Source: a virus
Strand: one strand, 5' to 3'
Virus record (IMG/VR): IMGVR_UViG_3300017963_000087
Location: 1 to 48,141 of that record
Length of the DNA stretch: 48,141 bases
This document shows positions 3,977-17,702 of this stretch, piece after piece (within the stretch, counting starts at the first letter, position 1; each line of letters begins with the position of its first letter). The position numbers and the translations under genes were made by a program. The notes under the pieces are model-generated. The model was not told where the DNA came from. It did no database searches and saw only the letters and a list, made by a program, of their open reading frames with translations.

Positions 3977-4006
3977 AGTAAGCATGGCTGCAGTTTGTAG
4001 CATAAA

Positions 4007-4038
4007 AAAGCCCCCCAGAACTTAATCTGAGGGGCTTT
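4007..4038. terminator. Bidirectional Rho-independent terminator
   Basis: AAAGCCCC (4007-4014) pairs with GGGGCTTT (4031-4038), extended inside by CAGA/TCTG. An A-tract precedes the stem and a T-rich stretch follows it, so it works in both directions. It separates the rightward genes ending at 3976 from the leftward unit ending at 4043. Confidence 0.92.
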
Positions 4039-4042
4039 GTTG

Positions 4043-4255
4043 TTATGAATCATTATTGTACTTCATCCGGTTAAATGCTGCCTTCCATTCTTTCATCGAA
4101 TCAATCATGGATGACTTAGTGAATTTAAACTCTCTTCTACAGTAGGTACACCGGGCGATGGGTTTTTCCACTTCCCGGGCGGTCAACTCAATTCTGGTTT
4201 CGCACATCGGACAAACGGTATGAAGTATAAATTGTGAATAGTTTGTACGTTTCAT
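4043..4255 (-). CDS. Small zinc-ribbon protein
   Basis: This 70-aa protein has CPMC near residue 15 and CTYC near 36, a single zinc ribbon, followed by a basic stretch and a helix. The start overlaps the stop of the upstream membrane protein gene (ATGA), so the two are coupled. It is the last gene of the leftward unit, just before the terminator. The zinc ribbon suggests nucleic acid or protein binding; no specific role can be given. Confidence 0.8.
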   Translation of the reverse strand: MKRTNYSQFILHTVCPMCETRIELTAREVEKPIARCTYCRREFKFTKSSMIDSMKEWKAAFNRMKYNNDS

Positions 4256-4458
4256 AGCGATACCCCCAGAACCATCTCATATACAGTGAGAATAGTCCAC
4301 AGCATTATGCAAAGCACTCCGCTAAAGTATGCAACGGACTTCGTTACACCTATTTGCTGGAAGTCTTTCAGTTCCCAGTGAATCAACTCTTCATCCTGCC
4401 ACAGATTTGCTTTAACGGCAATGGCAATACAGAACAATCCAAATAATAATAGTAACAT
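4252..4458 (-). CDS. Small membrane protein, two transmembrane helices
   Basis: This 68-aa protein has an N-terminal hydrophobic helix (LLLLFGLFCIAIAV), a short charged loop (WQDEELIHWELKD) and a second helix (YFSGVLCIMLWTIL). Start follows AAAGGAG, which lies in the end of the upstream gene. Such proteins in regulatory or early operons may act in superinfection exclusion, but this is only a guess from topology. Confidence 0.75.
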   Translation of the reverse strand: MLLLLFGLFCIAIAVKANLWQDEELIHWELKDFQQIGVTKSVAYFSGVLCIMLWTILTVYEMVLGVSL

Positions 4459-4461
4459 AAT

Positions 4462-4620
4462 TTACTCCTTTTCTTTTGGCTGAATCTCTGATTTGATACC
4501 TTTCACAGCCAATAACTCGAGGGCTGCCTGAAAGGACCGGATATCATTTACTTTTTGATATTGCTGGACCATCACAATAACTTCCGGGGATAATTGTAAC
4601 GTCTTCTGTACTTTTCTCAT
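4462..4620 (-). CDS. Ribbon-helix-helix DNA-binding protein
   Basis: The protein is 52 aa, from an ATG at 4620 placed 6 nt after AAAGGAG. A longer frame to 4677 has no ribosome site. The pattern is a short beta strand (KTLQLSP), a helix (EVIVMVQQYQKVN), a turn with serine, and a second helix (FQAALELLAVKGI). This is the Arc/MetJ/CopG ribbon-helix-helix fold, which binds operators as dimers. It is the only clear small repressor-type protein in the leftward unit. The palindrome TTATAATTATAA in the leftward promoter is a possible operator (inference). Confidence 0.7.
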   Translation of the reverse strand: MRKVQKTLQLSPEVIVMVQQYQKVNDIRSFQAALELLAVKGIKSEIQPKEKE

Positions 4621-4630
4621 ATCGTCTCCT

Positions 4631-4915
4631 TTACCCTGTGTATGGATAACATACCAGATATCTGTAAATGTTCTCACCGATTTTCTGTAGTGAGTAGTAG
4701 GAACCTAATCCGTAAGGGAAACCACAGCGACCGTCAAACCTGTCTTTGTCTGTGGCCTTGTTCTCTGCTGGTCTGATAAATTCTTTGCAGAACTTCTCGA
4801 CTTCCTTTTCATCCCTATCAGAATATATCTTATATTCGAATATGGAATCCTCATATGGTTTAGTCTGACCGGACCGGATTACATCCCAGTGAATTAAAAA
4901 TGTTTTCTCTGGCAT
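4631..4915 (-). CDS. Hypothetical 94-aa protein
   Basis: The start follows AAAGGAG with a good spacing. The protein is soluble and rich in acidic and aromatic residues (YKIYSDRDEKEVEKF, YGLGSYYSLQKIG). No family recognised. It lies between tRNA-Tyr and the ribbon-helix-helix gene in the leftward unit. Confidence 0.75.
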   Translation of the reverse strand: MPEKTFLIHWDVIRSGQTKPYEDSIFEYKIYSDRDEKEVEKFCKEFIRPAENKATDKDRFDGRCGFPYGLGSYYSLQKIGENIYRYLVCYPYTG

Positions 4916-4950
4916 AATTAACTCCTTTCGTTTAACGTGTTACGTTATAG

Positions 4951-5034
4951 TGGGTATAGATGGATTCGAACCACCAAAGGTCAGCGACCAACAGATTTAC
5001 AGTCTGCCTGAGATTTCCCATTCTCAATATACCC
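4951..5034 (-). tRNA. tRNA-Tyr (GTA)
   Basis: Read leftward, the acceptor GGGTATA pairs with TATACCC. A D-arm (GAGA/TCTC), an anticodon arm with loop CTGTAAA (anticodon GTA), a long variable arm (GGTC/GACC) and a T-arm with TTCGAAT follow. The long variable arm is the bacterial type II tRNA-Tyr form. CCA is not encoded, so the host must add it. It sits between two protein genes of the leftward unit and would need processing out of that transcript. Confidence 0.95.
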
Positions 5035-5040
5035 AACAGC

Positions 5041-5250
5041 CTATTGAACTTGAACAATTTTGCGTTTTTTGTCATAGCGAATAAATATATAAGCATCTTT
5101 CGGTGCGTCATTGATGCCGACATACTGACCATAATGACCACCAAACATGGTGGCTATAACAAAATCCTTGCCTTCGTTCCAATCTTTCTTAACGGCCTTC
5201 TGTGACGTATAGTCCCTACCATATGCTGGTAACAAAGTTAATGAAGTCAT
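5041..5250 (-). CDS. Hypothetical 69-aa protein
   Basis: The ATG at 5250 follows AAAAGGAG; an upstream in-frame start would run into the folded RNA. The sequence is rich in aromatic and charged residues, with a glycine-rich centre (MFGGHYGQYVGI). It is the first coding gene after the structured RNA and ends 6 nt before tRNA-Tyr. No family recognised. Confidence 0.75.
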   Translation of the reverse strand: MTSLTLLPAYGRDYTSQKAVKKDWNEGKDFVIATMFGGHYGQYVGINDAPKDAYIFIRYDKKRKIVQVQ

Positions 5251-5278
5251 TTTATACTCCTTTTGGTTAGTGTAAATA

Positions 5279-5489
5279 GCACCCGGCAACAGAATCGAAC
5301 TGTTGTGCGACCATCCCGGGTGTAAGGAGTTAGGGAGTCACAGTCACAGACCTTGTTCAGGCGTTAACTGTGGACTCTGTACGGGGACTCACGCTTTCGG
5401 CTTTTCATCTCTACTGTAGAGAATCCGCAGGGCTGTGCTCCGCATTGACCAGAGTCGATATTTTCGACCGGAGTTGAATAAATCAACTG
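5279..5489 (-). ncRNA. Unidentified structured RNA with tRNA-like 3' hairpin
   Basis: No gene lies here, but base pairing is dense. Read leftward from the predicted start, hairpins are AGTTGA/TCAACT (5488-5472), GTCGA/TCGAC (5468-5454) and TCTCTA/TAGAGA (5422-5408). A 7-bp long-range pairing GACTCTG/CAGAGTC joins 5456-5450 with 5379-5373. The segment around 5376-5368 can instead pair with either of two overlapping copies at 5349-5336. The 3' end (5322-5280) is a 7-bp acceptor-like stem stacked on a T-arm with loop TTCGATT. I recognise no known RNA family. Possible roles are a leader that controls the leftward genes or a stable phage RNA released by tRNA-processing enzymes (inference). Confidence 0.6.
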
Positions 5490-5494
5490 GGAAC

Positions 5495-5523
5495 AATGTA
5501 ATTATAATTATAATACGTGTCAA
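5495..5523 (-). promoter_or_regulatory. Leftward sigma-70-type promoter
   Basis: TTGACA (5523-5518), a 17-nt spacer and TACATT (5500-5495) place the start near 5488, exactly at the first hairpin of the structured RNA. The -35 box is perfect; the -10 box matches 4 of 6. Confidence 0.7.
5502..5513. promoter_or_regulatory. Candidate operator palindrome TTATAATTATAA
   Basis: A perfect 12-bp palindrome lies inside the spacer of the leftward promoter. The same 15-nt core (TAATTATAATTATAA) occurs once more in intergenic DNA just before ssb (15170-15181). A shared regulator is suggested but A/T-rich DNA can give such matches by chance. Confidence 0.35.
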
Positions 5524-5564
5524 ATTTATTTTTAATATTTTTTTATAAAATGTATAATTTGATA

Positions 5565-5593
5565 TTGATTTGTAGGCCCTAAATGATTATATT
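5565..5593 (+). promoter_or_regulatory. Rightward promoter for the replication-initiation genes
   Basis: TTGATT (5565-5570), 17 nt, TATATT (5588-5593). The pattern is the same as at six other sites in this genome. It reads into the HTH gene at 5621 and the O-like gene. Confidence 0.75.
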
Positions 5594-5620
5594 CTTTTGA
5601 ATTTAACCCGGAGAAAAAAA

Positions 5621-5803
5621 ATGGAAAAAAAATTTATTAATGCTCAGGAATGTGCTGAGTATTTACATGTTACTACCCAGACTATAAGTAATTGGGCCAG
5701 AGAATTTAAGATACCGTTCTATAAGCCTCACGGGAAGTTATTATTCATTAAAGATGAAATCGATCAGTGGGTGATGGCATCCAAGGGGGTGAAGAATGGC
5801 TAA
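5621..5803 (+). CDS. HTH (excisionase/MerR-type) DNA-binding protein
   Basis: This 60-aa protein begins at ATG 5621 after GGAG; the longer frame from 5597 starts inside the predicted transcript leader. The sequence INAQECAEYLHVTTQTISNW, then KPHGKLLFIKDEIDQWV, is the winged-helix HTH_17 pattern of excisionase-like proteins, with a helix-turn-helix followed by a wing. It overlaps the initiator gene start. With no integrase present, a transcriptional or replication-control role (lambda Cro/Xis-like position) is more likely than excision. Confidence 0.8.
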   Translation: MEKKFINAQECAEYLHVTTQTISNWAREFKIPFYKPHGKLLFIKDEIDQWVMASKGVKNG

Positions 5804-6773
5804 TCCTCAACCTGATCAATATACCAGAATAAGCAATGAATATCTCGAAGCATTACTCCAGTATAATATCCCCGGCAATCCCAGAAGAATACTCGATACT
5901 ATCATCAGATATACTTGGGGATTCCACAACAAATCAAACCCAATTGGTATCACATTATTCAAAAAATCGACCGGAATGAATGAAAAAAACATCCGGGAGT
6001 CCATCAAATGGTTGCAAAGCAGAAAACTTATTGGTATTAACACCACCAAGTATCGCCATGAATACAGTATAGTCAAGGATTACACCAAGTGGAAAGATGG
6101 GGGTTATATTACCACCAGTTTTCCCAAACATGGTGGTAATGATACCCTCTATGGTACTCAGGAAGAAACTAATGGTAATGATACCCCCAAACTTAATGGT
6201 CATGATACCATTACAAAAAGAAAAAAGAAAACTGATAAAGGGGATCACCCGAAAATATCATCCAATGTCCCCTTCAGTGAAAAAGAACTTTTGGAAATCT
6301 ATAATGGCAACAACTTCACTTTTGATTTTGAGAAGTTTGTTACATGGTGGGATGAGGGCACAAAGGTTTTAAAAAGACCTAAATCGGCTATGCTTAATTG
6401 GCAGGGTAAAGAACCACCACCACCAGAACCAGAGAAACCTAAACCAAAAAAGGGAACAAAGGAATGGTATGAGTCCGGGCCAACAATGATGCCTACCTAC
6501 ACCATATTGAATACCAGATGCGTCAAAGATATTGAAAAATTCCAAGATGAAGATTTTATCATTCAAGGAACATTGGATGGGTATGACTTCAAAAGACGTA
6601 AAGAGTTTACTCCAGAAGAAGCCCTTAAGTTTTTAGCAAAAGTTAACCCGGAATGGCAAAAAAGTGGATACAAAAATTTGTTCGATAAATTAGATTGGAA
6701 ATTCATAAAATTATATTATAATTTAGAGCGATCAGAATTCGATCCCAACTATAAAGAGGAACTACCAATATGA
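5796..6773 (+). CDS. Lambda O-like replication initiator
   Basis: The protein has 325 aa. Residues 5-100 (YTRISNEYLEALLQYNIPG, IIRYTWGF, GITLFKKSTGMNEKNIRESI) match the phage replication protein O N-terminal winged-helix domain, which binds origin iterons. A hydrophilic linker follows (residues 110-160, NGNDT repeats, lysine-rich), then a C-terminal region with KEWYESGPTMMPT and a tryptophan-rich end. In lambda the origin lies inside the O gene, and here the linker DNA also holds iteron-like repeats (6135-6209). The protein would bind these, melt the A-rich flank and recruit the helicase (family knowledge plus inference). Confidence 0.8.
   Translation: MANPQPDQYTRISNEYLEALLQYNIPGNPRRILDTIIRYTWGFHNKSNPIGITLFKKSTGMNEKNIRESIKWLQSRKLIGINTTKYRHEYSIVKDYTKWKDGGYITTSFPKHGGNDTLYGTQEETNGNDTPKLNGHDTITKRKKKTDKGDHPKISSNVPFSEKELLEIYNGNNFTFDFEKFVTWWDEGTKVLKRPKSAMLNWQGKEPPPPEPEKPKPKKGTKEWYESGPTMMPTYTILNTRCVKDIEKFQDEDFIIQGTLDGYDFKRRKEFTPEEALKFLAKVNPEWQKSGYKNLFDKLDWKFIKLYYNLERSEFDPNYKEELPI
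6135..6209. repeat. Iterons; probable replication origin
   Basis: Three copies of GGTAATGATACC or GGTCATGATACC lie at 6135-6146, 6174-6185 and 6198-6209, with a diverged copy (GGTTATATTACC) at about 6104. Each has the imperfect palindrome GGTA/TACC. Directly after them comes an A-rich, nearly T-free strand (about 6210-6240). Iterons followed by an A-rich tract inside an O gene is the lambda origin layout. Confidence 0.65.
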
Positions 6774-17195: not shown

Positions 17196-17382
17196 TTTTC
17201 TCCGATACGGTGAGGACTTAGTAAATGATGGTAAGGAACCGGATAAAATTTTTCCACCCGGGTGGCCAGAGGGTTTTAGGTTAGCAGCAGAGCAACACAG
17301 AAATGACATAGAGGAAAATCTTATGTTCGGTTCCTTTGATCCTGCAATTGTGGCGAGTTCTTCAACACATGTAGATATTTAG
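17182..17382 (+). CDS. Small protein with SDFLRYGED motif, 66 aa
   Basis: The ATG at 17182 overlaps the previous stop. The N-terminus KCSDFLRYGEDLV repeats the motif seen at 15596 and 16221. The middle is PGWPEGFRLAAEQHRND and the end is Ser-rich. Its stop codon overlaps the first bases of the tRNA gene. Confidence 0.62.
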   Translation: MKCSDFLRYGEDLVNDGKEPDKIFPPGWPEGFRLAAEQHRNDIEENLMFGSFDPAIVASSSTHVDI

Positions 17383-17454
17383 TGGGGTAGAGAAGTGGTA
17401 TCTCGGGAGAATCATAATCTCCGTCTATCGTGGGTTCGAATCCCACCCCCACCA
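17381..17454 (+). tRNA. tRNA-Met or tRNA-Ile2 (CAT anticodon)
   Basis: The D-arm is GAGA/TCTC, the anticodon arm is GGAGA/TCTCC with loop ATCATAA (anticodon CAT), and the T-arm is GTGGG/CCCAC around TTCGAAT. The acceptor pairs GTGGGG with CCCCAC, leaving an A1:C72 mismatch. The anticodon stem lacks the three G:C pairs of initiators, so it is elongator Met, or Ile if C34 is modified to lysidine. CCA is not encoded. Confidence 0.88.
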
Positions 17455-17456
17455 CT

Positions 17457-17702
17457 ATGTTTAAATTATTACGTAAAATAAAACTGAGCCGACTATTGAA
17501 AATAGAACCTACCTACAGGACAAAATATGGTTATGAGTTTAGCCAAAAAGACCTCGACAAAATGGAAGAGCAGGGCTTTTCTGAACAGGATATAGCAGAA
17601 ATACTCAATATATCGAGACGGATGCTGTATAAAATAAGGAAAAAAATGAACTGGCCCCATAAAATAAGGTCTGATAAAGGGAAAACTCATGCCAAAAGTT
17701 AG
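17457..17702 (+). CDS. HTH protein, 81 aa
   Basis: The ATG at 17457 comes two bases after the tRNA; an earlier start at 17430 would lie in the tRNA. There is no usable Shine-Dalgarno site, so tRNA processing may leave a nearly leaderless message. Residues 30-60 (FSEQDIAEILNISRRMLYKIRKKMNW) form a helix-turn-helix closely like that at 8972. The rest is basic. It may regulate the late switch just downstream (inference from place). Confidence 0.72.
   Translation: MFKLLRKIKLSRLLKIEPTYRTKYGYEFSQKDLDKMEEQGFSEQDIAEILNISRRMLYKIRKKMNWPHKIRSDKGKTHAKS

Follow-up and report, generated by a model that had tools for sequence, protein, structure and literature searches.

The 44 nucleotides at positions 5279 to 5322, on the minus strand of the window (the whole 48,141-nt stretch analyzed, IMG/VR virus record IMGVR_UViG_3300017963_000087), form a tRNA-like minihelix, one of a family widespread among phages, at which RNase P and RNase Z would split polycistronic RNA; we place the probability of this reading at roughly 0.6. 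The window encodes terminase, portal, and major head proteins together with replication proteins. The minihelix family is apparently undescribed, with no matching family in Rfam and no description found in a literature search that lay largely outside subscription journals and preprints. The first-pass annotation had described positions 5279 to 5489 as an undescribed structured RNA resembling a switch or antitermination leader. A structured RNA is indeed present and matches no Rfam family at either gathering or permissive thresholds, but the switch leader was not borne out, and the relevant part is the 3' 44 nt.

Results

A tRNA-like minihelix without D-stem or anticodon arm

Read along the minus strand from 5322 to 5277, the element is CACCCGG-GATGGTCGCA-CAACAG-TTCGATT-CTGTTG-CCGGGTG-CTA, comprising an acceptor stem and a canonical T-arm joined by a D-loop-like linker (GAUGGUCGCA) whose 10 nt stand in for the D-arm, anticodon arm, and variable region (Table 1). 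The T-arm, with its GTTCRANTC loop, and the acceptor stem lie in a 12-bp stack as in tRNA, and C5322 is able to add one pair with G5280. An anticodon arm and D-stem are absent, and the window copy was detected neither by ARAGORN nor by the Rfam tRNA model (RF00005). The strict arrangement occurs once in the window and in none of 300 simulated windows. Nearest-neighbor energies for the window copy narrowly favor another fold (−17.6 versus −17.1 kcal/mol), so the structure rests on comparison.

The minihelix shares with tRNA (RF00005) and tmRNA the T-arm consensus, the 12-bp acceptor/T stack, and C74, but differs from them in having no anticodon arm, D-stem, tag ORF, or encoded CCA. Two specific identities were rejected. 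For tmRNA, the 5' acceptor strand lies only 10 nt ahead of the T-arm, and ARAGORN finds no tmRNA; for a remnant of an attP site or tRNA 3' end, the 5' acceptor strand lies about 10 nt ahead of the T-arm in relatives and covaries, and no tyrosine integrase was detected in the window.

Table 1. Positions of the minihelix, its flanking features, and the tRNA genes of the window
Feature	Coordinates	Strand	Basis or remark
Overlapping alternative promoter-like site TTAAAA/TATAAT	5535-5507	-	
Promoter-like site TTGACA-17-TACATT, leftward transcript	5495..5523	-	Consensus match only
Leader RNA of ~170 nt, apparently noncoding	5323..5490	-	No ORF; fold z −2.49
Acceptor-like 5' strand ACCCGG	5316..5321	-	Family pairing
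D-loop-like linker GATGGTCGCA, conserved GG and R-AUGGU-Y pair	5306..5315	-	R-Y covariation
T-arm CAACAG-TTCGATT-CTGTTG	5287..5305	-	Sequence and covariation
Acceptor-like 3' strand CCGGGT, completing the 12-bp coaxial helix	5281..5286	-	
Tail G-C-T-A (positions 73-76)	5277..5280	-	
69-aa ORF, first gene past the minihelix	5041..5250	-	RBS AAAGGAG
Genuine tRNA-Tyr (GTA)	4951..5034	-	6 nt past TAG of the 69-aa ORF
94-aa ORF past tRNA-Tyr	4631..4915	-	RBS AAAGGAG
tRNA-Met, second phage tRNA of the window	17378-17460	+	First bases overlap TAG (17380-17382) of the upstream reading frame

Comparative evidence for a functional RNA family

To collect viral relatives, a pattern was used that fixed only the letters of the linker and T-loop and left stem pairing unconstrained; conservation of loop and linker in the family is therefore partly imposed by the search. 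At least 120 IMG/VR stretches matched. After removal of near-identical copies, with remaining kinship uncorrected, 101 of the 116 distinct viral matches among those listed (about 87%) carried Watson-Crick pairs at 8 or more of the 12 stem positions. In the unselected alignment, pairs 4-8/40-44 and 19-24/34-39 were formed in 88-97%, as compared to 39-67% after shuffling, and both stems exhibited all four Watson-Crick pair types. The linker R-Y pair around AUGGU covaried as G-C/A-T (94% versus 73%). Forty-four rows, chosen for good pairing and hence biased toward structure, served to build a covariance model; these rows gave a covariation score of 1.137, as compared to 0.226 when shuffled. A linker-agnostic scan of 2.03 Mb yielded 60 further elements, possibly including a few true tRNAs, in which the linker varied in length and sequence, GG was retained in 58 linkers, and C74 was present in 57 elements.

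Both subclasses (6 + 6 and 7 + 5, with T-stems of 6 or 7 bp) form a coaxial helix of 12 bp, and in both, pairing drops from ~85% to 32-49% at base pair 13. Twelve base pairs is the length of the tRNA acceptor/T stack, and the D-loop-like GG linker can form a tRNA elbow. The tail follows the form N-C-N-A, with C74 in 83 and C75 in 7 of the 101 viral minihelices among the matches listed; the non-CCA tRNAs of the same loci likewise carry C74 in 66 of 78 cases and usually a base other than C at position 75. Within the stems, G·U pairs outnumbered A·C pairs by 47 to 7 (p = 2e-8), indicating that the sense RNA of the minihelix is under selection and functional.

Distribution among phages and bacteria

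When a genome collection was scanned with the linker/T-loop pattern, 98 bacterial stretches were recovered, and 68 of the 80 bacterial loci examined carried well-paired minihelices. These loci belong mostly to Streptomyces and Nonomuraea, along with other actinobacteria and small numbers of Bacteroidota and further taxa, and are likely prophages or mobile elements. Three Nonomuraea genomes (L182, L161, and L181) hold 3-5 near-identical minihelices within 1-2 kb, and a WhiB-family gene lies downstream of those in L182. A subgroup with the stem TTGCGGT/ACCGCAA was observed at L044, L027, L020, L058, and L070; the copy in L044 is located ~0.8 kb upstream of a stretch resembling Listeria phage terminase large subunit genes. 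No full-length match was obtained in 80 helicase-fetched phage loci (823 kb) chosen regardless of the minihelix, indicating that the minihelix is common rather than universal and that the model is specific.

Placement after stop codons and in arrays

Minihelices lie preferentially just past stop codons. In 58 of 97 viral copies, a reading frame of at least 60 codons ended −4 to 25 nt upstream of the first paired base, as compared to 10% for random positions, with the stop-to-minihelix distance peaking at 6-8 nt; 35 of the 97 had no qualifying upstream ORF. Copies in bacterial genomes showed the same arrangement in 25 of 57 cases (13% at random). With frames of at least 100 codons and an interval of −10 to 40 nt, the count was 47 of 107, versus 8.7% at random and 6 of 107 on the opposite strand. 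Stop proximity is partly a product of compact phage genomes, but the random positions, the strand asymmetry, and the arrays argue that it exceeds this effect.

The arrays consist of 3-8 minihelices on one strand between short ORFs. The largest contained 8 copies in 5.6 kb (G014), followed by 5 in 2.5 kb (G012) and 4 in at most 2 kb (G011 and G016); three-copy arrays were found in the Gordonia phages Trine and MakoManhole and in mycobacteriophage LittleE, and the first pattern match (L010) also lies in an array. Where no Shine-Dalgarno sequence is present, the next ATG usually follows 12-19 nt downstream of the minihelix; where one is present, it and the ATG are found ~45-50 nt past the minihelix. 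The genes upstream of minihelices are diverse (anti-restriction, HNH, and others of no known function), and upstream gene function was set aside as a clue to the role of the minihelix since no common function emerged.

Several further features of these loci were observed. At L010:1200-1600, an IMG/VR isolate record, tandem minihelices are spaced by 5-mer repeats of the GGCAAGGC/GGCGCGGC type, and repeats of this type also surround the minihelices of LittleE (L132) and adjoin those in the Gordonia phages (L131 and L134). The Trine minihelix at L134:1711-1754 is called "tRNA-???" by ARAGORN (1686-1754), so that minihelices may be present in databases as questionable tRNAs. Minihelices are overlapped by Trine gene 40, whose annotation begins at L134:1488 and whose start is probably misannotated. 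In G012 and G014, a tyrosine integrase gene is located ~2-3 kb from the minihelix array.

An array in which every small gene, whatever its function, has a folded element behind it is reminiscent of an integron, in which case the minihelix would be a DNA-level recombination site like the attC hairpin and each short gene with its minihelix a mobile cassette. Tyrosine integrase genes were found in 6 of 12 records tested, some of them no more than a few kb from the array, which fits this explanation. However, the record of the window (without a PF00589 match) and five others have no tyrosine integrase, the excess of G·U over A·C pairs reflects selection on sense RNA, and the T-loop, D-loop GG, 12-bp helix, and C74 are all tRNA features. 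A DNA-cassette role is thus disfavored, and we consider it quite improbable.

The two genuine tRNAs of the window display stop codon/tRNA junctions (Table 1), such that real tRNAs share the layout of the minihelices. Both end in A-C-T-A, with C-T-A past the discriminator like the minihelix. The arrangement expected for punctuation of a transcript, in which tRNA or tRNA-like units abut stop codons between consecutive same-strand genes, is therefore observed for both kinds of element.

Location a few nucleotides past stop codons would also suit an RNA that is not cut at all, namely a stable tRNA-like 3' block, possibly CCA-tailed, that protects upstream messages from exonucleases, or a stable end that downstream decay leaves behind. 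The LittleE copy at W02 24482, located at the end of a block of leftward genes that converges on the tape-measure gene, agrees with such a role. In arrays, however, minihelices are found in mid-transcript with the next ORF 13-60 nt downstream, and a simple hairpin would be enough for protection, with no need for a tRNA elbow, a 12-bp ruler, or C74; we regard this explanation as unlikely. Somewhat less likely still is a trans-acting role, in which the 44-nt mini-tRNA serves as a decoy or charged minihelix that titrates EF-Tu, RNase P, the CCA enzyme, or a tRNA-targeting defense nuclease. Retention of the T-loop/D-loop elbow and the NCNA tail, and the presence of several copies per phage, fit this model, but it makes placement past each stop codon unnecessary, the acceptor sequences vary freely, which leaves no single synthetase identity, and an anticodon is lacking.

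The upstream leader

The stretch from 5290 to 5490 was confirmed as gene free, with no minus-strand ORF of at least 60 aa; the longest short frame in the leader spans 40 codons from a TTG and lacks a ribosome-binding site. The promoter proposed to start transcription at about 5488 is present as sequence (TTGACA-17-TACATT), but the start position is less certain than proposed, as its score of 10/12 is equaled by the overlapping TTAAAA/TATAAT site, which shifts the start by 12 nt. Promoter-like sites showed no enrichment (10 found versus 6.6 ± 2.8 expected in shuffles). The reported dense pairing proved modest and near chance over 218 nt (z −1.76, with 10 of 200 shuffles as good), and the first 168 nt of the leader fold somewhat better than shuffles (z as in Table 1). 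The 7-bp helix GACTCTG/CAGAGTC exists (5456-5450 and 5379-5373), and in the minimum free energy fold 5379-5373 is bound instead to the GACTGTGACTC region (~5336-5349), such that the described alternative pairings do occur; the helix gained no comparative support, no homologues having been found, and the competing fold is near chance and likewise without comparative support.

The search for homologous leaders that had been proposed returned none, and covariation was detected only for the 3' 44 nt, the sole part of 5279-5489 with comparative support. Among 50,697 phage records there was no DNA-level relative of this region, and DNA and protein searches gave no close relatives of the locus that cover the leader. 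Relatives of the portal protein (L007/L008) are 4-6 kb fragments with the leader region outside them, and relatives of the 69-aa protein (L002-L006 and L009) have no complete minihelix adjoining.

For a riboswitch or antitermination leader spanning the whole of 5279-5489, the somewhat better than shuffled fold of the 168-nt leader and its alternative pairings are the points in favor. Against these, no terminator-like site was found within 4000-6000, Rfam and the site scan returned no known aptamer, T-box, or terminator/antiterminator ahead of a gene, the leader has no homologue, the overall z is marginal, and the conserved tRNA-like 3' part occurs elsewhere without that leader. The leader and its competing folds are thus unsupported, and of the explanations weighed here we give this one the least credence.

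Discussion

RNase P recognizes the elbow of tRNA and uses the T/acceptor stack as a ruler (PMC4919913), and in vitro it cleaves hairpins composed of an acceptor and T-stem/loop, making use of RCCA pairing (PMC11143913). A T-loop with a T/acceptor stack of ~12 bp is found in both minihelix subclasses, and what the family conserves (elbow loops, 12 bp, and C74, with the rest free) corresponds to the features RNase P reads, from which we infer cleavage. Host RNase P would read the elbow-to-acceptor length and cut at the 5' end of the minihelix, and the short unpaired stretch that separates the stop codon from the helix would act as the leader for this enzyme; RNase Z or another nuclease of tRNA 3' ends would cut past the discriminator. 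The predicted products are separate mRNAs with very short 3' ends and defined 5' ends. With respect to pairing of RCCA with the GGU of P15, C74 is kept and C75 is rare in the counts given above, so the minihelix would pair only in part with RNase P RNA, a property common to those phage T4 tRNAs that lack CCA (PMC11143913). In the window phage, cleavage at ~5321/5322 would detach the leader as an RNA of its own and create a new 5' end for the 69-aa mRNA, and the real tRNA-Tyr would end that unit. The broader proposal, that many unrelated phages and actinomycete genomes punctuate their messages with 44-nt mini-tRNAs hijacking RNase P and RNase Z, and that genuine phage tRNAs act alike, is in our judgment evenly poised.

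This model is reminiscent of mitochondrial tRNA punctuation, where tRNA or tRNA-like units also lie between genes flush with stop codons and cuts free the mRNAs, a layout that the real tRNA-Tyr of the window reproduces. In contrast to mitochondria, the units here are mostly 44-nt minihelices without anticodon arm or D-stem, they occur in phages and actinomycetes, and their cleavage is predicted. Non-tRNA phage substrates of host RNase P are known, namely the φ80-induced M3 RNA and the P1/P7 C4 antisense RNA (PMC11143913). These resemble the minihelix, by description, as phage folds that are cut, or in our case would be cut, by the host enzyme, but they are single RNAs of individual phages, whereas the minihelix is recurring, covarying, multicopy, and located past stop codons. 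AT1-type model substrates (PMC11143913) share the acceptor/T stack with T-loop; unlike these, the minihelix is natural, has a 10-16-nt linker with a D-loop-like GG, and carries an NCNA rather than an RCCA tail. The lncRNAs MALAT1 and NEAT1 are matured by tRNA-processing machinery, a tRNA-like element 3' of the RNA body marking the end for tRNA enzymes (PMC12941219); as compared to these single eukaryotic elements, minihelices are present in many copies per genome, mostly past ORFs.

The minihelix is a compact, sequence-flexible, strongly covarying RNA absent from Rfam and present in phages of many environments. Its occurrence in the cultured phages LittleE, Trine, and MakoManhole makes it testable, and it would supply an annotation rule for "empty" spacers past phage stop codons. 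If the punctuation reading is true, the minimal RNase P substrates made for in vitro work would have an equivalent in nature, tRNA punctuation would extend beyond organelles, and a second role would be suggested for phage-carried tRNA genes. Minihelices probably account for the splitting of long transcripts into messages of one gene each in some phages.
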